This document shows positions 13,469 through 24,850 of a stretch of 64,000 nt of DNA, in pieces (position 1 is the first letter of the stretch; each line of letters starts with the position of its first letter). Both the position numbers and the translations under genes were made by a program. Source of the stretch: Bradyrhizobium sp. SZCCHNS1050 (GTDB lineage: Bacteria > Pseudomonadota > Alphaproteobacteria > Rhizobiales > Xanthobacteraceae); contig NZ_JAUETR010000001.1 of NCBI RefSeq assembly GCF_032484785.1, positions 1,608,501 to 1,672,500 on the forward strand, written 5' to 3'. The notes under the pieces are model-generated. The model saw only the letters and a list, made by a program, of their open reading frames with translations. It made no database searches and was not told the origin of the DNA.

Positions 13469-14720
13469 TCAAACCGCCGCGGAGTGCGGAGTTCGGTCTC
13501 TGTCGAAGAGTTCGCCGGTCCTCAGCATGGCGCAAGCAACCCCAATCAAACGGCTGCCGATCGAACGCAGCGCGCGAGCATGAGAGTCTCCGCGCTTTCG
13601 TAAGGCGGCATATCGATTGCGTGTTTGGAAGTCGTGCAGCACCGCCACGCGCGCCCAATGGTAGACAGCCGTTCTGAGACGATGCGGACAAGACTGTCGC
13701 ATAACCACGAGAATCTGCTTACCGCTGCGCCGCGTGACGGGCGCGACTCCAGACAGGCCCCTAAGTGCATGGGCATCGCGGCGAGCGACCGCGTCATGTG
13801 CTTCGGACAAGAGCGCCGCGAGAACGATCGTCCCTACTCCAGGCATTGACCGCAAGATCTCGGGATCGGCCTGGGAGTTCGGTACGACGCCGATTGCTGG
13901 CCGGGAGCTCGGCGACCGCGGAACACAGGCGCTCGAACTGCTTCAGCGCGACCTTCATCTGCTGCATTACCAGTCGCAGACGCTGCAGGATCAGCTCGCA
14001 ATGCGCGACGCAGGCTTCCGTAACACCGTCTGCCACCGTTATCGGCTTGCCACGAAGATGGTTGAGCAACGTGTCGGCCGTCCACTTCTTCACCCGGCTT
14101 TGCTTCAGTCGCTTTGCGACCGTCGACGCTCTCACCGTTTGTGCTTTGGCGGGTGTGGAGATCAAGTCCCAGAGCTCCAAGATCCAATGCTGCGACCAAT
14201 CTTCCGCAAGGTCCAGCATCTGCGGAAAGTAGCGCCAGAGCTGATGCCGAAAGCGGTTAGCCAAACGATTGCGTTTGGCAGACAAGTCCTCTGCCATGCG
14301 TGACCACTCACGCAACTGGATGATCGTCGGATGCACCGGTTCCAAGAACCGATAGAAACGCCGATCTGTTCGCAGAGACTCGGCAAGCACGAGCGCATCG
14401 AGCCGATCATCCTTGGCACCCGCCATGGTAAATCGATCTCGAAAGCGATCAAGTTGCTTCGGATTCAAGGCATGCACGAGAAAACCAGACTCCATCAGGC
14501 TCTCGACGACTGGTCCGTGCGGGACTTCGATTCCAACAGCGATGCGCCCCGGCTCGGCACCCGCCGTTGTTCGGATCCAGTCAGCAAGTTCAGCCAACCC
14601 TTCACCGCTATGCTGAAACGAGCGATGGCCGAGCTTTGCTCCTTGGGCATCCAACGCATAAACGTAGTGCGTCGCCGATGCCCAATCGATGCCCACGTAT
14701 GCAGCAATTTCTTCAGTCAT
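13469..14720 (-). pseudogene. frameshifted IS110-family transposase
   Basis: The N-terminal part (ATG 14720, AGGAGG upstream) has the RuvC-like DEDD domain of IS110 enzymes (AAYVGIDWASATHY, then GAKDDRLDALVLAESLR). The C-terminal transposase_20 part (RSMPGVGTIVLAALLSEA and LSGVAPVTRRSGK) lies in a different frame. A single-base shift near 13890-13903 joins them into one protein of about 415 residues ending at 13469. Inactive unless the shift is programmed, which is not usual in IS110. Confidence 0.8.
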
Positions 14721-17578: not shown

Positions 17579-17704
17579 CGCTTGCCTCCCCTTGGCTAGC
17601 GGGGTCTTTGATCACATACGAGACGATAAGACGGCGATAATACCTGGCAGTGTATAGGAAAGTTCATATTCGCCACCCCCTCGAATCCGTGTTATGGCTT
17701 GATC

Positions 17705-17911
17705 ATGACCGAGAAGCGCAAAGGCTCCAGCATCAATTCCTCCACCCGCGTCTTGGGAGATAAGACTTTTGCGGCCATTTCGGCTGTAGAAGGGTTGAAG
17801 CTTGGCAAGGCTTCTAGGGATCGCCTGTCCTCTCTCGACAAGGCAAAATTGACGCCGGCCCAAAAGCGGGCCGAGGTTTTGAGAGCGTATGTTCGGCCCA
17901 AGGGCCGCTAG
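17705..17911 (+). CDS. VbhA-like Fic antitoxin
   Basis: A 68-residue protein immediately upstream of a Fic gene. It carries an alpha-helical segment, FAAISAVEGLKLGKASRDRL, that resembles the inhibitory helix of class I Fic antitoxins, whose motif is (S/T)xxxE(G/N). Here the Ser is three rather than four residues before the Glu. The ATG at 17705 is preferred over TTG at 17699; no strong ribosome site is seen. It is expected to block ATP binding in the Fic active site. Confidence 0.75.
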   Translation: MTEKRKGSSINSSTRVLGDKTFAAISAVEGLKLGKASRDRLSSLDKAKLTPAQKRAEVLRAYVRPKGR

Positions 17912-17916
17912 CGCCG

Positions 17917-18492
17917 TTGAGCAGTTACGACGTCTTCGACGATCCCTACTGCTACAAGGGCACCTCGGTCCTTAAGAACCGAGCGCGCCTGAGGGACGCA
18001 AAAACCCTAGAGGCGTTCGAACTCGAAATGTCGACGTTGAGGTCACGCGAACCTCTCCCAGACGGGCAATTCAATCCTGCGCATTACAAGCGCATCCACC
18101 ACCATCTGTTTCAGGACGTCTACACCTGGGCCGGCAAGTACCGCACCGTCCGCACCTCAAAGGGTGGCAACCCGTTCGCCTATCCTGAGCACATTGCCTC
18201 CTATATGGACGAGGTGTTCGGAAAGCTCGCGCTTCCGGCCCTGAAGCCTGGGTCGAGCGATGCGGACTTCCTGGATGCCGCCGCAGACTTCCTGGCCGAA
18301 CTCAACGCCATCCATCCCTTTCGGGAAGGCAATGGACGATCCCAGCTCTCGCTTATGCACCTTGTCGGCCATCGGGCAGGACACCCGCTCGTCCTGACGC
18401 GTATTAACCGCGACACGTTCCTGCCGGCCATGATCGCGAGCTTCGACCGCGATCTCGACCCGCTTAAAGCCGAATTGCAAAAGCTTCTGTAA
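17917..18492 (+). CDS. Fic-domain AMP-transferase toxin
   Basis: A 191-residue Fic protein. The catalytic motif HPFREGNGRS is complete at residues 133-142. The N-terminal half (NRARLRDAKTLEAFELEMST and HHHLFQDVYTWAGKYRTVRT) is typical of VbhT/Fic core domains. It uses TTG at 17917, five bases after the antitoxin stop, so translation is coupled. No inhibitory motif lies inside the protein, consistent with class I control by the upstream gene. Members of this class AMPylate topoisomerases such as GyrB and ParE; the target here is unproven. Confidence 0.88.
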   Translation: MSSYDVFDDPYCYKGTSVLKNRARLRDAKTLEAFELEMSTLRSREPLPDGQFNPAHYKRIHHHLFQDVYTWAGKYRTVRTSKGGNPFAYPEHIASYMDEVFGKLALPALKPGSSDADFLDAAADFLAELNAIHPFREGNGRSQLSLMHLVGHRAGHPLVLTRINRDTFLPAMIASFDRDLDPLKAELQKLL

Positions 18493-18499
18493 CCCGCCG

Positions 18500-18721
18500 C
18501 TACTCTGAGCCGGCTTGCCGAGCCAGCAGACGACGCGCGCGAGCAAGCCGAGCTTTCAGGTCGTCCTGAAAGGCGGGGTCCTTGCGCCGATTCTCGATGT
18601 GCTCGCTGATCGCGGCGCGAATCACGTCCGAAACGGCTCGCTGCTCGACCGACGCAACGGTTTCGAGCGCCTCGGCCTGTTCGTCAGTGAGGCGGATGGT
18701 CATGGCTTTGGTCGTTTTCAT
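18500..18721 (-). CDS. ribbon-helix-helix (CopG/Arc-type) regulator
   Basis: A 73-residue protein starting MKTTKAMTIRLTDEQAEALE, the N-terminal strand of an RHH DNA-binding domain, then VASVEQRAVSDVIRAAISEH for the two helices and a basic tail. The stop is 7 bases from the convergent Fic gene, and its start faces the ubiquitin-like operon across an 83-base divergent region with an obvious palindrome. It probably represses its own gene and perhaps the ubiquitin-like operon. Confidence 0.75.
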   Translation of the reverse strand: MKTTKAMTIRLTDEQAEALETVASVEQRAVSDVIRAAISEHIENRRKDPAFQDDLKARLARARRLLARQAGSE

Positions 18722-18761
18722 GCGGGAAATTTGCACCTTAGCACCGGCCTTGTCAAGCGGC

Positions 18762-18787
18762 TTGATACCATGGTATCTTGGTATCAA
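18762..18787. promoter_or_regulatory. inverted-repeat operator between RHH regulator and Ubl operon
   Basis: TTGATACCA (18762-18770) and TGGTATCAA (18779-18787) are perfect 9-bp inverted arms. A third TGGTATC half-site in the centre also gives the perfect 14-bp palindrome GATACCATGGTATC (18764-18777). Three evenly spaced half-sites in a divergent promoter region suit an RHH protein. Confidence 0.6.
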
Positions 18788-18804
18788 TCAACGGAGGTGC
18801 CACA

Positions 18805-19203
18805 ATGTCTGAACATGAGAGAATCGGCCGGGACGACCGCGAGAAGGAACTTGAGGCTTTCAAGGAACGCCAGCTTCGCGAGCTGCGAGAATTCGAGGAA
18901 CGCCAGAAGAAGGAGCTGGAGGAATTCGAGCGCCAGGAGCTGGAGGAGCTGAAGCAGCCCGAGGAGCGTCAGCACCCGTACGAGATCAAGATCGACCGCA
19001 CCGAGTTCAAGGTGAAGGAGCACTTCCTCACGGGCGCCCAGCTCAGGGCACTGCCCAACCCGCCCATCGGCCCTGACCGCGACCTGTTCGAGGTCGTGCC
19101 CGGCGGTTCGGATGAAAAGATCGCGGACACGCAGAAGGTGAAAATGCGCGACGGCCTGCGCTTCTTCACGGCGCCCACGCAGATCAACCCGGGCCTCGCC
19201 TAA
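18805..19203 (+). CDS. ubiquitin-like protein (multiubiquitin family) with N-terminal coiled coil
   Basis: A 132-residue protein. Residues about 10-56 are a charged coiled coil rich in Glu, Arg and Leu (ERQLRELREFEERQKKELEE). Residues 58-125 match the Multiubiquitin beta-grasp domain: HPYEIKIDRTEFKVKEHFLT, ALPNPPIGPDRDLFEVVPGG, KMRDGLRFFTAPTQI. The C-terminus reads INPG followed by LA, so there is no terminal Gly-Gly and two residues follow the Gly. GGAGG lies 8 bases before the ATG. It is followed by E2-like and JAB-E1 genes. It is expected to be the conjugated modifier. Many family members have two or more Ubl domains; this one has one. Confidence 0.85.
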   Translation: MSEHERIGRDDREKELEAFKERQLRELREFEERQKKELEEFERQELEELKQPEERQHPYEIKIDRTEFKVKEHFLTGAQLRALPNPPIGPDRDLFEVVPGGSDEKIADTQKVKMRDGLRFFTAPTQINPGLA

Positions 19204-19215
19204 GGAACAACTACC

Positions 19216-19602
19216 GTGCTGCCTTCACACGACATCGAATATCTGAACGCCAAGGCTCCAGGCCATCAGGTCACTGCTGAAGGCGGCGTTATCTGCGTGC
19301 TCGTTCCATCGTACCGGCTTCCGAAGGGATTCGACCAGGAGGCCAGCGATCTGCTTATTCGCCTAGCTCCTGGTTATCCCGATGTGCCGCCGGATATGTG
19401 GTGGTTCGACCCGCCCGTACGCCGAACAGACGGCGTTGTCATCCCGGCGACCGAGGCCCGGGAGGGCCACCTCGGACGTCAATGGCAGCGCTGGTCGAGG
19501 CACTTCACGCCGGGCCAATGGCGCTCGGGCATCGACTCACTTCAAAGCTACTTCGCTTTGATCAGAAACGAGCTGCTGAAAGCGGCGCCGGGGAATTCAT
19601 GA
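19216..19602 (+). CDS. E2-like protein (Prok-E2 family E)
   Basis: A 128-residue protein starting at GTG 19216 (AAGGA upstream). It carries the E2-fold signature GYPDVPPDMWWF (53-64) and the family's W.RW..HFTPGQW..GID block (90-106). The only Cys is C27 in a predicted beta strand (GGVICVLVPSY), not at the canonical catalytic position after the PxxP region, so either C27 or another nucleophile is used, or transfer is direct from E1. The stop overlaps the JAB-E1 start (ATGA). Confidence 0.82.
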   Translation: MLPSHDIEYLNAKAPGHQVTAEGGVICVLVPSYRLPKGFDQEASDLLIRLAPGYPDVPPDMWWFDPPVRRTDGVVIPATEAREGHLGRQWQRWSRHFTPGQWRSGIDSLQSYFALIRNELLKAAPGNS

Positions 19603-20981
19603 CAATTACGCTGGTCCTGACAGAACCGCTCTTCCAGGAGATTGAGCAGACCGCCCGGCTTCCGGTGGAAACCGCAGGCGTGCTGCTCGCAGGCTTCGCC
19701 CGCGCACCGAATGGCGATATCCGGCTGCTCGGACGTGGGATGCGCTGGGTGCCGCAAGATGCCTATCTCGCGCGCGAAGGAGATCACCTGACCATCGCGT
19801 CGCAGGGGTACGTCCCTGCCCTCGCTGAAGCCGAGCGCATCGGTGCCATTCCGATCTGGTTTCACACCCATCCCGGCACGATCGGTCACCCGACACCCAG
19901 CATGGCCGACCGCAAGGTCGATCAGGATATCTCCGACCTCTTCCGGCTGCGTTCGGGCTCGGAACTGTACGTCACGCTCATCGCGTCTCCACGCGACGAC
20001 GGAATCACCTTTACCGGCGAGGTACATCTCGGCGATGGCAGGAAAACGCCGATCGACCGCCTGTGGCGCGTCGGCGACAAGTGGCAGCTCCTCCATTCCT
20101 TCAATTCGGCCGCCCCGCAAATCCCCGCAATCTTTGACCGGAGCGTCCGCGCTTTCGGCGCTGACATCCAGCAGACTCTTGGCGCTTTGCGCGTGGGAAT
20201 CGTCGGCTGCGGCGGCACCGGGTCGGCTGTCACCGAGCAACTGGTGCGTCTTGGCGTCCGTCATCTCACCCTAATCGATGCCGATACGCTGACCGAGAGC
20301 AACGTCACGCGGGTCTATGGCTCGACATCCACTGCCGTCGGCAGAGCGAAGACGGCCGTGTTGCAAAGCCACCTGACAGCGATCGCGCCCGATCTCGAAT
20401 GCCATACCGTGGCGGCGATGGTGACCCTCGAGAAGACGGCGCGCGAACTGATCCCTTGCGATGTCGTTTTCGGCTGCACCGATGACAACGCCGGCCGCCT
20501 GGTTCTCTCGCGGTTCTCGACCTTCCTGGCTGCCCCCGTCATCGATTGCGGCGTGCTGCTGGGCGGTGATGGAGCGCTTGCGAGCATCAACGGCCGCGTC
20601 ACCACGCTCACGCCGGGCGGGGCTTGCCTGGTCTGCCGCGACCGAATCGACCTCGCCCGGGCGCAAACCGAGCTGCGAACGCCGGAGGAGCGGATACGGC
20701 TTGAGAATGAAGGCTATGCGCCCGTCCTGGGAGCCGTTGAACCAGCGGTGGTGACGTTCACTACCAGCATCGCTTCCGCCGCCATTAATGAGCTGCTGGA
20801 GCGCCTGATCGGCTTCGGGCCCAGCCCGAGGCCGACGGAGGTTCTATTCCGCTGGCATGAGAGAGAAATCTCGACCAACAATGCGAAGCCTCGACCCGGT
20901 CATTACTGCGACCCGGAAAGCCAAAAGATCGGCAGGGGCGATGGCACCCCCTTCCTTGAACAAGCGTGGCCCGGCGCATGA
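19599..20981 (+). CDS. JAB-domain/E1-like (ThiF) fusion enzyme
   Basis: A 460-residue two-domain protein. The N-terminal JAB/MPN metalloprotease has the JAMM ligands in order: E24 (VETAGVLL), H89 and H91 (FHTHP), S101 and D104 (SMAD). The C-terminal E1/ThiF domain has the nucleotide-binding GCGGTG at 203-208, acidic DAD at 228-230, a Cys pair C343/C346 (ACLVC) and a further Cys at 437 (GHYC), suggesting a zinc site. C317 in VIDCGVLLG is one candidate catalytic residue. The fusion combines Ubl activation with Ubl processing or removal. It overlaps the genes on both sides by 4 bases. Confidence 0.88.
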   Translation: MTITLVLTEPLFQEIEQTARLPVETAGVLLAGFARAPNGDIRLLGRGMRWVPQDAYLAREGDHLTIASQGYVPALAEAERIGAIPIWFHTHPGTIGHPTPSMADRKVDQDISDLFRLRSGSELYVTLIASPRDDGITFTGEVHLGDGRKTPIDRLWRVGDKWQLLHSFNSAAPQIPAIFDRSVRAFGADIQQTLGALRVGIVGCGGTGSAVTEQLVRLGVRHLTLIDADTLTESNVTRVYGSTSTAVGRAKTAVLQSHLTAIAPDLECHTVAAMVTLEKTARELIPCDVVFGCTDDNAGRLVLSRFSTFLAAPVIDCGVLLGGDGALASINGRVTTLTPGGACLVCRDRIDLARAQTELRTPEERIRLENEGYAPVLGAVEPAVVTFTTSIASAAINELLERLIGFGPSPRPTEVLFRWHEREISTNNAKPRPGHYCDPESQKIGRGDGTPFLEQAWPGA

Positions 20982-21403
20982 AGATTCGTTGGTGGCAGTG
21001 GCGGTGGGTCGACTGGCTACCTCAGTGGCTGACGCCTCCGCCGCGGTGGCAGTGGCAACGGCCTGATTGGCTTCCTCAGTGGCTGATTCATCAGCCACCG
21101 TTGTACTGTCTCGGCCGGGTCGAGTCGGCTGATGAGATACCAGTGAAGCTGCCGAGAAGCACCGCCGTCGTCGTCGGCGACATATCGCGCCGGAAGTGGA
21201 TCGCCTTCGATTGTCCGTGCCGAAGCGGCCATCGCATCATGCTCAACCTCGATCGCGACCGGAGCCCTTTCTGGCAATTATCTACGGTTGATGGCCCCCT
21301 TTCGCTTTCGCCAAGCGTGAACTACTATGATGGCCGGCGCAGATGCCACTACTTCATAAGAGATGGGAAGGTCGATTGGGTGGGGGATACATTCGGTGAG
21401 TGA
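20978..21403 (+). CDS. DUF6527-type protein with Trp-rich N-terminus
   Basis: A 141-residue protein. Residues 1-40 contain ten Trp, with the block DWLPQWL repeated at 12-18 and 30-36 between Pro-rich linkers. The C-terminal domain has FDCPCRSGHRIMLNLDRDR (C79, C81, H85) and RRCHYFIRDGKVDWVG (C123, H124), the pattern of DUF6527 proteins, which occur next to bacterial ubiquitin-like genes and probably bind zinc. Start by ATGA overlap with the JAB-E1 gene. It could be an E3-like or target-adaptor component; the Trp-rich segment could bind membranes or peptides. Function not established. Confidence 0.75.
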   Translation: MKIRWWQWRWVDWLPQWLTPPPRWQWQRPDWLPQWLIHQPPLYCLGRVESADEIPVKLPRSTAVVVGDISRRKWIAFDCPCRSGHRIMLNLDRDRSPFWQLSTVDGPLSLSPSVNYYDGRRRCHYFIRDGKVDWVGDTFGE

Positions 21404-22295
21404 CAACAGCCAAGAATCCCTGCCGGCATCTGAGGCTGCGCCGCCCAAGGCCGAGCGTCCGCTTACGAAGACGCCCATGTACGCGGCGATGAACGCGGGT
21501 CGCTACCAACGGCAGGAGCTTATCAAACACATCAACGCAACCGAGGGCACAAAGCTCATCTGCTACGTTTCGAGCTTGGAAACCGAGATCGACCGCAACG
21601 ATGTGATCGGCTTTGTGGAGATGCTCCACAACATTCCCGAAAATTCCCCGATCGATCTCCTTCTCAATACCGGCGGCGGTGACGTCGACGCCTGCGAGAA
21701 GCTGGTCAAGCTCGTGCTGGCGAAGGCAGGCACACAGCCGTTACGTGTGATCGTGCCCGACCTGGCGAAGAGTGCCGGTACCCTGATGGCACTCGCCGCC
21801 AGCAAGATAATCATGAGCAACACTTCTGAGCTTGGCATGATCGATCCGCAATTCCTCCTGAAGGACGCCCGCGGCAATGAGCTGACCTACTCAGTGATGG
21901 GCTACTTGGAAGCTTATGAAGAGCACTGCGAGGTGATGCGCAAAAACCCGAACGACCCGATTGCGCTATTGATGCTCGATAGCTTCGACGCCAGGACTGT
22001 CAAGAAGTTTCAGGGTATCCGCGACCGTGTGAGGACGTTCGCCGAAGACATGCTGAAGCGCCGTGGCGCACCGAGTTCAACGATTTCCCAGGCTCTGATG
22101 AGCGCCAGCCAATGGAAGACTCACGGCCAGCCCATTGATTACGCCGATGCCAAACAGCTCGGCCTACCGATCGAGTACCTTGCACCGGATGACGAGCGGT
22201 GGAGCCGCTATTGGGAGCTGTACTGCCTGCTTCGCCTTGAGACGGAAGAAGGCAAGAAAATCTACGAGTCGGCTTACGCGTCGCAGATCGTGTAG
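21396..22295 (+). CDS. SDH/SppA-like ClpP-fold serine protease
   Basis: A 299-residue protein of the serine-dehydrogenase-proteinase (SDH_sah) or SppA-like group. The oxyanion region is LLLNTGGGDVDA (88-99) and the nucleophile is S126 in DLAKSAGTLMALAA; GMIDPQF and a C-terminal KTHGQPIDYADAKQLG match the ClpP-like fold. No signal peptide, so it is cytoplasmic. The GTG at 21396 (8-base overlap with the DUF6527 stop, GGGGG upstream) is preferred to an ATG at 21363. As the last gene of the ubiquitin-like operon it may degrade modified targets; this is inference. Confidence 0.8.
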   Translation: MSDNSQESLPASEAAPPKAERPLTKTPMYAAMNAGRYQRQELIKHINATEGTKLICYVSSLETEIDRNDVIGFVEMLHNIPENSPIDLLLNTGGGDVDACEKLVKLVLAKAGTQPLRVIVPDLAKSAGTLMALAASKIIMSNTSELGMIDPQFLLKDARGNELTYSVMGYLEAYEEHCEVMRKNPNDPIALLMLDSFDARTVKKFQGIRDRVRTFAEDMLKRRGAPSSTISQALMSASQWKTHGQPIDYADAKQLGLPIEYLAPDDERWSRYWELYCLLRLETEEGKKIYESAYASQIV

Positions 22296-22300
22296 GCGTT

Positions 22301-23221
22301 CTACGGCTTGGGGGATACCGGCTGGACGAACTGCATCGTCATCGAATCGTGCGCCCTGCCGTCCTCCCAGCTCATTGTCAGCCAATTGGTCGCAGCGGGA
22401 TACGCTATGACGATCCTTCCTGGTCGATATCTAGCGCCGCGCAGGAAGGGATATTTGCTTTCCTCGAGAGGTTCGAGCAGCAGCACAAAGCTTAGACCTA
22501 AGATATTCACCGCCAGCGCTTCGATATCCTCCTGGTCATTTGTCAGGGGCTGTAGCTGAAAGCGCGAATGGTTGAGAGTTCGATCGCCCGCCTTCATGGT
22601 GCAATAAAGCCCAGCACCGTCCGGCCAATAACGGGGGTCGTCGAGCATGTCCAACAGCGCTGCGTCGCGTGAGAACGCGCCAGATAGCGGCGCCCTGCCC
22701 CTGGCAAGGTTCTTCGAGACCGCAGCCGCCTTGGCCGTTTTTAGCAGCCATCGTTCGAGGTCGTGCCCCGAGACAAGGGCGTGTCTCGATCCCGCATCCT
22801 TCTCCAGGTATGACTTGAGGGAAGCGAAGAAATACTTGGCGGCATCATCGAGTGGATGAAGGGTGCTGTTATGTTTGGTGCAAAGACAGTTCGAACGCAG
22901 ATTTTGGGGTGCGAGAATCTTTTCCTCGCCGGGCGCGAGCCAAGGAAGGCCGCCCACGGAGAAATCTCCGTCGCCCATCAAAAGCCTGATGACCGACTCC
23001 GAAATAATGTGCTCGCCCGAGATGGGGCCGACGCACGAACCCATACCGTTCATATAGCATCTGGAGATGTTCGATGCCTGCGGAAGCGCGCTCAATCCAA
23101 GGACAGCGGACGCCTTGTACCAGTCCTTGCCATTGAAACAGCACACCCGCCCGGGACGCGTCGAACCGCACGGGCAAGGGCCATTCAAGACGGACTCTCT
23201 TTTTCGCTTCGCCTCGCCCAC
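22301..23221 (-). CDS. SEC-C motif plus HNH-like nuclease candidate
   Basis: A 306-residue protein. The N-terminal zinc motif CPCGS...CC (C16, C18, C27, C28) is a SEC-C domain. An HNH-like region follows: SGEHIISESVIR (69-80) and NLRSNCLCTKHNSTLHPLDD (107-126), with His, Asn and Cys residues spaced as in HNH folds. The C-terminal half is unassigned. GTG start at 23221, 8 bases after the HEPN gene stop, so the two genes are an operon convergent with the ubiquitin-like operon. Confidence 0.65.
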   Translation of the reverse strand: MGEAKRKRESVLNGPCPCGSTRPGRVCCFNGKDWYKASAVLGLSALPQASNISRCYMNGMGSCVGPISGEHIISESVIRLLMGDGDFSVGGLPWLAPGEEKILAPQNLRSNCLCTKHNSTLHPLDDAAKYFFASLKSYLEKDAGSRHALVSGHDLERWLLKTAKAAAVSKNLARGRAPLSGAFSRDAALLDMLDDPRYWPDGAGLYCTMKAGDRTLNHSRFQLQPLTNDQEDIEALAVNILGLSFVLLLEPLEESKYPFLRGARYRPGRIVIAYPAATNWLTMSWEDGRAHDSMTMQFVQPVSPKP

Positions 23222-23229
23222 TGTGGTTC

Positions 23230-23895
23230 TCAGGACCTCATACGAGAATTAAATACCGTAGTCCAAGCTTCATGCTCAGCTTTGAGGTTCTCGACGAGGG
23301 CGGTCACTGTCTCGTCGTTGATGGCCTGTGGCTTCCCATGGCTAAATTCGTTTCGACGCTTGTGAATGTCAGTGAGCAGGTCGGCAACTGACACAAAGCC
23401 ATGGTCGCGCAGATCGTCGAAATAATTCGTGCCAAAGAATATCTTGTACAGATCGTACAGCCGGCTCCCGATCCCAGAATATCGCTTGAGTTGGTCATCG
23501 AGGACGCGCTGCGGAAGCTTTCGCATCGCTGCACGGTGAAGTCTCTCAATACGGGTCTCGAAGTAACCCCAGAACAGCAGCACCAAGGCCGCTTGCGCTG
23601 ATGGACGTTCCGCACCGGCAAGTGCCTGGAACTCGACAACTGGGCGCTCCCACTCGCGCTGGAGCATCTGTAGGTAGATGTAGTCCTCGTAGCGACCTTC
23701 AGCGCCCGCGAATGTCGCATGCAGAACCATCTCCTCGCCATCTATGACAATGGTTTGAGGCGTTAAATCAAAAGGATCAGCACCGCAGCCGGGGCAGGGC
23801 CCGTGGATCGTGCGAATAGCGGGGCAGCTACCGCAAGCCACATATCCCGACCATAGGCTTGTCCATGACTTTCCCGGTAGCTTGTCGTACCACAT
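23230..23895 (-). CDS. HEPN-like protein with zinc ribbon
   Basis: A 221-residue protein. The N-terminal four-Cys zinc ribbon has CGSC at 21-24 and CPGC at 34-37. The C-terminal helical part ends with KRRNEFSHGKPQ, in which R181 to H186 is the Rx4H motif of HEPN RNases, followed by Gly as in that family. Proteins of this kind cut RNA in toxin-antitoxin and abortive-infection systems or act as helical dimers. ATG start with GAGGG 9 bases upstream. It leads the SEC-C/HNH gene. Confidence 0.65.
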   Translation of the reverse strand: MWYDKLPGKSWTSLWSGYVACGSCPAIRTIHGPCPGCGADPFDLTPQTIVIDGEEMVLHATFAGAEGRYEDYIYLQMLQREWERPVVEFQALAGAERPSAQAALVLLFWGYFETRIERLHRAAMRKLPQRVLDDQLKRYSGIGSRLYDLYKIFFGTNYFDDLRDHGFVSVADLLTDIHKRRNEFSHGKPQAINDETVTALVENLKAEHEAWTTVFNSRMRS

Positions 23896-24775: not shown

Positions 24776-24850
24776 TGGCGCTCCCTAGGGGAATCGAACC
24801 CCTGTTTCAGCCTTGAGAGGGCCGCGTCCTAACCGCTAGACGAAGGGAGC
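24776..24850 (-). tRNA. tRNA-Glu (anticodon CTC)
   Basis: Minus-strand cloverleaf: acceptor arms GCTCCCT (5' end at 24850) and AGGGAGC, D-arm with GTCTAGCGGTTAGGAC, anticodon loop CTCTCAA giving anticodon CTC (Glu), T-arm AGGGGTTCGATTCCCCT, and an encoded CCA at 24776-24778. Its 3' end faces the accessory island, the usual orientation for integration at the 3' end of a tRNA. Confidence 0.92.

Follow-up and report, generated by a model that had tools for sequence, protein, structure and literature searches.

A Bub operon of Bradyrhizobium with an SDH-type serine protease as its last gene and a divergent ribbon-helix-helix regulator

The window analysed here, a stretch of 64,000 nucleotides from Bradyrhizobium sp. 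SZCCHNS1050 (contig NZ_JAUETR010000001.1, positions 1,608,501 to 1,672,500), contains an operon that, judged by its genes, belongs to the Bub type (bacterial ubiquitination-like, formerly "type 6e"). It is a variant of the already described Bub pathway, and two parts, an SDH-type serine protease encoded by the last gene and a divergently encoded ribbon-helix-helix (RHH) regulator, mark it as a subtype. From the comparison of related loci, this is very probably a distinct, mobile and widespread subtype with six constant parts, the protease and the RHH regulator included. The gene set, its origin in a single clade, the intact active-site motifs and the conserved promoter repeats are established at the level of sequence.

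The first-pass annotation had listed five tightly spaced or overlapping genes on the plus strand, and all five were found in place. They encode a BubA-like ubiquitin-like protein (Ubl; 132 aa, 18805-19203; Multi_ubiq, 8e-9, 36 bits against a cut-off of 24.5), the E2-like BubB (128 aa, 19216-19602; Prok-E2_E, PF14462, 1e-34), BubCD, in which a JAB (JAMM) peptidase is fused to a ThiF/E1 domain (460 aa, 19599-20981; ThiF, 1e-35), a DUF6527 protein (141 aa, 20978-21403; PF20137, 3e-19) and the SDH-type protease of ClpP fold (299 aa, from a GTG at 21396 to 22295; SDH_protease, PF01972, 1e-16), the last frame being open already from an ATG at 21363. A spacer of 12 bp separates the first two genes, and the following junctions overlap by 4, 4 and 8 bp. 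The profiles Multi_ubiq, Prok-E2_E, ThiF, DUF6527 and SDH_protease were all matched above their Pfam cut-offs. Because BubB and BubCD are homologous to the solved Citrobacter proteins (E-values of 6e-13 and 1.4e-19, respectively), the operon was assigned to the Bub pathway; together with the Pfam matches, these similarities bear out the proposed identities (Ubl, E2-like, JAB-E1, DUF6527 and SDH). The count of five genes was correct for these members and missed a sixth conserved part, the RHH regulator (73 aa, 18500-18721, minus strand). The RHH operator, a Fic gene pair and a genomic island, all treated below, were likewise absent from that annotation.

The Bub pathway has reportedly been described, with BubA, BubB and BubCD of Citrobacter, by Gong in 2025 and by Ye in 2026. 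The window operon shares with the Citrobacter system the Multi_ubiq Ubl, the Prok-E2_E type of E2, the JAB-E1 fusion and DUF6527, but its subtype differs in the near-constant SDH protease and RHH regulator, in a separate and well-supported E1 clade, and in carrying mostly one Ubl domain (two in L038 and L042). In the accessible text of Iyer et al. (2006; PMC1779556), the type 6e set consists of a polyUbl, an inactive E2/RWD-like protein, a JAB-E1 and a metal-binding 'Y' protein, and is mobile and sporadic. The window subtype agrees with that description in its Ubl, inactive E2/RWD-like protein, JAB-E1, Y protein and mobile, sporadic occurrence, but the same text mentions no protease and does not contain the term ClpP. 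The Y signature given there, C-x3-C-x35-38-H-x2-C, is altered in the subtype, in which CPC..GH and CH are found instead; since the Pfam domain is present, this is treated as variation within the DUF6527 family. The Bub locus of Synechocystis pSYSX (L142) has Ubl, E2, ThiF and DUF6527 in identical order, but its divergent regulators are a helix-turn-helix (HTH) protein and an ImmA/IrrE peptidase, and it has no SDH. In Bil (bacterial ISG15-like) operons, Ubl, E1, E2 and a JAB peptidase are likewise combined in a single operon; the window subtype differs from these in an E2 without the invariant cysteine, the JAB-E1 fusion, DUF6527, RHH and SDH. Among the matches listed in a literature search on polyUbl with ClpP-like or Bub (including PMC13373217, PMC12687455 and PMC11354881), none dealt with a protease link in its accessible text, and a search for DUF6527 found no paper.

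Linkage of the protease to one E1 clade

Relatives of the protease were collected by a pattern scan over one genome per species with exact 8-residue patterns, a procedure that misses diverged relatives, and 42 loci were obtained. At all 34 loci with a protease of at least 42% identity over at least 160 residues, Bub genes adjoin on the same strand, and at the remaining 8 (24-28% identity, or 43% over 67 residues) there are no Bub genes. The order A-B-CD-DUF6527-SDH is kept, as far as each gene is present, in 33 of the 34, the exception being L038, which starts with the protease; in L028 the contig begins too late to include A and B, and in L046 no separate A is present. The 34 loci span Pseudomonadota, Acidobacteriota, Actinomycetota, Chloroflexota and Planctomycetota, and recurrence of the same gene order in five phyla puts the arrangement far beyond chance. 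With the window included, DUF6527, JAB-E1 and protease occur together in 35 of 35 loci, all chosen through the protease; near-copies (L138 of L024, L030 of L043) are contained in the counts. Broken protease frames were observed in otherwise recognisable operons (L045, L046/L130 and L140), and in Acidicapsa a second, diverged SDH gene (L037:53-1189) lies 5.7 kb upstream of the Bub protease.

Searches seeded with the E1 protein agree with this survey. Among 265 genomes of the window's genus, 10 matches were detected at 1e-80. Nine are of the subtype and all have the protease (one copy broken); the tenth is far weaker (2e-99) and has none. Since the nine comprise the window's own genome and eight others already in the protease scan, the search shows no more than that an intact E1 of the clade was never met without protease. 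In 396 Acidobacteriota, 8 matches were found at 1e-60, and the two of the subtype both carry protease and RHH; G1396, a new subtype genome of this phylum that the protease scan had not shown, carries both. The six weaker matches show neither, though two of their contigs end early, 0.4 kb past DUF6527 in L160 and 1.5 kb past E1 in L165. On plasmids, an E1 match is present in 33 records; the 7 with an identity of at least 50% coincide with the 7 records whose protease reaches 45% or more. In one of these, from Microbacterium, the protease is in pieces. On a Paracoccus plasmid (H74), a partial E1 similar to the other type was met without protease. In 394 genomes of the Mesorhizobium family, the seed genome alone gave a match at 1e-80. 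From 385 genomes of the class, 3 matches at 1e-40 were obtained: the window's own, the weak L135 (its contig ends early) and a relic (G707/L136). When 397 Pseudomonadota were searched for DUF6527, it was found in 22 genomes, with 17 of 24 places in Bub loci and the protease at the window's own place only.

In E1 trees of 57 and 69 rows, the protease label corresponds to one change and the clade has a support of 100; on these trees, the protease-carrying E1 clade is of single origin. L027, L028, L043, L107, L109, L110 and the short loci L001-L014 were left out of the 57-row tree, and L115 in addition out of the 69-row tree. For L135, L160 and L165, early contig ends make the no-protease label in the larger tree unsure. 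The same caution holds for every contig that stops within the Bub genes or shortly behind them, L110 included. Pairwise distances of SDH and BubCD are correlated (r of 0.86 over 29 loci, reached in 0 of 500 permutations; L027, L028 and L043-L046 excluded). Chance adjacency of the protease is thus ruled out by the trees, the E1-seeded searches and the locus survey. The proposal of a dedicated protease as the last gene of a Ubl-conjugation operon has held, and the protease is conserved beside the other four genes with the decayed E1 relic G707/L136 as the sole exception.

Active sites, BubA maturation and the protease

The SDH protease (61 bits against a cut-off of 31.3) has the catalytic serine and the ClpP fold of its family, and is related to the SDH equivalog NF047768 without being one (76 bits against a cut-off of 250). 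S126-H243-D150 is the candidate catalytic triad. The fold is shared with ClpP and with 1510-N (PH1510, the stomatin-specific NfeD protease), in which the serine aligned with S126 is, by our assignment, Ser97. The Ser-Lys dyad of 1510-N is ruled out for SDH, since Lys138 of that enzyme aligns with S166, present in 29 of 32 intact Bub copies. In contrast to ClpP, a His appears to occupy the ClpP Asp position and an Asp the ClpP His position, according to our reading of the motifs.

In an alignment of 33 loci, no Cys was found among the near-invariant columns of BubB, where W-S94-R-H96 and D107 are invariant; the E2-like label given at first pass stands for the Prok-E2_E family, with the qualification that the invariant cysteine is missing. 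The JAB domain scores under the Pfam cut-off (17.8 against 25 bits), and a JAB-family profile search of the window's own genome gave no match. An undamaged JAMM motif (HTHP..PS..D) is present in 33 of the 35 subtype loci, the exceptions (L027 and L028) having a disrupted or truncated E1 gene.

The Ubl domain of BubA covers residues 59-124 approximately, and the protein ends in INPG plus a tail of two residues (LA). INPG is invariant in the subtype (33 of 33) and is followed by 2-15 variable residues. Such tails are also present where a JAB operon has no protease (L161, L134, L111, L112 and L114; for instance INPGG... and NPGARR...), and six operons without the JAB motif end tail-less in RTVQS, RTIQS, TDKS or SDKS (L081, L083, L085, L091, L092 and L094). 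Since tails occur in SDH-less JAB operons and in none of the six operons lacking the motif, their removal fits JAB, which from these termini looks sufficient for Ubl maturation. SDH as the sole Ubl maturase is ruled out by the tails of SDH-less JAB operons. The protease could alternatively act alongside JAB as another deconjugase or Ubl-processing enzyme, for instance on linkages that JAB is unable to cleave. In favour of this, enzymes of the ClpP-fold serine type cleave peptide bonds, the BubA tail needs removal should conjugation proceed through the NPG glycine, and the distances of SDH and BubCD correlate at 0.86. Such a role is nevertheless unlikely, given that 33 of 35 loci have an intact JAB and that the same kind of tail exists without SDH.

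The DUF6527 protein has to be considered in the same context. C79, P112, S113 and H124 are invariant among 24 diverse proteins, and with its invariant Ser and His the protein may itself be a hydrolase, in which case SDH may not be the only or the main second peptidase; a comparison of DUF6527 with the PDB gave no significant match. Its N-terminus is Trp-rich. In the subtype, the protein starts with the motif WWQW..LP..W (window 20978-21100), which is expanded to repeats in Bradyrhizobium and is possibly a membrane or partner contact.

The RHH regulator and its putative operator

The RHH regulator resembles RelB antitoxins and was identified through Pfam and NCBIfam, DUF6290 being over and RHH_1 just under the cut-off (20.4 against 20.5 bits). 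A divergent homologue is located at the same place in 33 of the 35 subtype loci and in none of 26 other Bub loci; the two subtype loci without it are truncated (L028) or degraded (L046). Upstream of bubA, TTGTCAA was detected in 30 of 32 distinct regions and GGTATC in 28 of 32, with 52 copies of the latter as compared with 0.84 in dinucleotide shuffles. Neighbouring GGT[AG][TG]C sites show a periodical arrangement, with 32 pairs 8 bp apart and 7 pairs 16 bp apart. Five further regions, unused in motif discovery, contain GGTATC (5 of 5) and TTGTCA (4 of 5), L138 among them being a near-copy of L024.

In the window, the bubA promoter/operator region (18750-18785, plus strand) consists of a -35 element TTGTCA (18750-18755), a -10 element TATCTT (18774-18779) and the half-sites GATACC (18764-18769), GGTATC (18772-18777) and GGTATC (18780-18785) with a period of 8 bp. 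These sites, starting at 18764, 18772 and 18780, overlap the -10 element of the promoter-like site, which is the single one detected in 18480-22500 and lies directly 5' of the Ubl gene; as shuffles average 0.9 such sites, it is weak alone. The layout of the GGTATC repeats is that of a repressor operator, to which RHH would bind, and RHH is likely an autorepressor of the operon.

Other Bub loci use other regulators. Among 15 whose upstream neighbours were scanned, 9 have an HTH protein with an M78 peptidase (L081, L095, L097, L105 and L113), a WYL protein (L088 and L108) or a UvrD-M78 fusion on the same strand (L083 and L086), and the remaining 6 have an AAA ATPase, a transposase fragment or nothing, the neighbour gene calls resting on a GC heuristic. 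In L083 and L086, the M78 peptidase is fused with a UvrD helicase and a PD-(D/E)XK nuclease directly upstream of the Bub genes. M78, WYL and GHKL domains were absent among the window neighbours scanned, RHH being found instead of CapW, CapH+CapP or CapK+CapS, regulators that are common in Bub operons without defining them. According to the accessible text of PMC13373217, 219 of 544 Bub operons have CapW or CapH+CapP and 59 have CapK+CapS, and CapP cleaves CapH upon ssDNA binding; the words ribbon, RHH and ClpP are absent from its main text as accessible.

This precedent raises the question of whether RHH and SDH form a built-in switch replacing CapP/CapH, in which SDH would cleave the RHH repressor upon a signal. 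Consistent with it are the HTH/M78, WYL or UvrD-M78 regulators of the 9 loci above and of Synechocystis pSYSX, and the presence of both RHH and SDH in nearly all subtype loci and of neither in the 26 others. In this scheme, however, RHH would repress the very promoter from which SDH is expressed, whereas the genes for CapH and CapP sit outside the operon, and the covariation of SDH and RHH (0.79) is not above that of other gene pairs; we consider the switch improbable.

Next to the RHH gene are two optional neighbours on the plus strand, a small antitoxin-like gene (17699-17911) and a Fic gene (17917-18492; Fic, 5e-20), the best NCBIfam match of which is VbhT, under its cut-off. Such a pair stands beside 21 of the 35 subtype loci, in both orientations, and Fic at 1 of the 26 other Bub loci; the Fic frame is split in two copies (L033 and L045). 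RHH could accordingly be counted with Fic and the antitoxin as a neighbouring toxin-antitoxin unit, the Bub system then comprising five genes only, in agreement with the resemblance to RelB antitoxins (under the family cut-off) and with the 21 loci having Fic and its partner. In 12 of 35 loci, however, RHH is not accompanied by Fic, and in all 33 loci with RHH its gene is divergent beside bubA, with the repeats over the bubA promoter; we consider such a unit improbable.

Genomic island, proposed mechanism and meaning

An island of 48.1 kb contains the operon near its tRNA end. The 3' end of the tRNA-Glu gene is repeated exactly over 44 bp, at 24776-24819 and, 48.1 kb to the left, at C1:1585149-1585192, where no full tRNA was found; the tRNA-Glu integration site in the window spans 24776-24850 (island repeat loci L144 and L145). 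At the far end of the island are a clear integrase gene running into the repeat, a second integrase under the cut-off, and TrwB and TrwC genes. The G+C content is 0.55-0.61 at 8-24 kb as against 0.62-0.68 beyond. C5 methylase, Hsp90-like and PLD genes and an IS110-type transposase (window 13794-14720) were also observed within the island. Related operons were found on plasmids. Carriage on phages is ruled out: exact-pattern scans of viral contigs gave no relative, and none of 7 phage-record matches (25-34% identity) covers 80% of the query.

With PADLOC, 5 of 8 large neighbours of related loci matched defence-associated models, a type I restriction enzyme among them and several being generic helicase matches, which weakly supports a defence role. 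Downstream of the operon are two minus-strand genes (window 22301-23895); the 221-aa product of one is a weak HEPN_Apea match, and this gene is met again close to Bub loci of Bradyrhizobium and, in Sphingomonadales (L019-L021), adjoining Fic. Another Bub subtype has a kinase-like gene (L095, matching TCAD9 and APH), and an HGDxHxxN-type motif was recognised by eye in L097, L111 and L112. The APH/TCAD9 kinase-like gene in place of the protease suggests a variable output slot in Bub.

For the operation of the system we propose the following. RHH would repress its own operon via the tandem GGTATC sites. Once repression is lifted, JAB would remove the residues that follow NPG in BubA, and the E1 domain would adenylate the exposed glycine. 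BubB would pass BubA to targets without a cysteine intermediate, and JAB, perhaps with DUF6527, would reverse the conjugation. SDH would be the output enzyme, a peptidase acting in stress or infection on proteins brought by the Ubl system, and not a Ubl-maturing one. The chances of this explanation as a whole (Bub subtype, RHH repression, SDH output) are about even, and those of the output role for SDH, judged from gene content and motifs, a little under even; the rest of the probability for SDH lies with functions other than output enzyme, second deconjugase or RHH cleaver.

Several observations count against this explanation. No AAA+ unfoldase was found among the operon genes, a host unfoldase being a possible partner. 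A ClpP fold alone is insufficient to degrade folded proteins, and the earlier idea of a modify-and-degrade transcript was not borne out. The Ubl proteins of L142 and L105 end in EG, tail-less, and the maturation argument rests on few JAB-less loci. The protease is present in 0 of the 26 other Bub loci and is thus not needed for the core chemistry. The decayed subtype E1 relic of G707 (L136, 7480-8472) lacks protease, RHH and other Bub genes within the 9.9 kb fetched; its pieces are 69% and 81% identical to L025, it adjoins a Fic-like frame, and standing alone it indicates that parts can be lost.

A wider idea, rather unlikely at present, is a self-contained logic like that of ubiquitin and proteasome: a mobile, RHH-repressed module of six parts, in which the Ubl would mark or recruit proteins to the module's own ClpP-fold protease, and which would be fired by loss of RHH, possibly via the same protease. 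If SDH is the serine protease meant by Ye 2026 and Gong 2025, the subtype is already known. For the Bub family, the constant and apparently intact protease offers a concrete enzyme for tracing the output of the pathway, and the putative RHH operator would be a simple handle for induction of the operon in a laboratory host. As RHH stands where other loci have HTH with M78 or WYL, and the protease where another subtype has a kinase-like gene, Bub may be a modular platform whose input and output parts can be exchanged.

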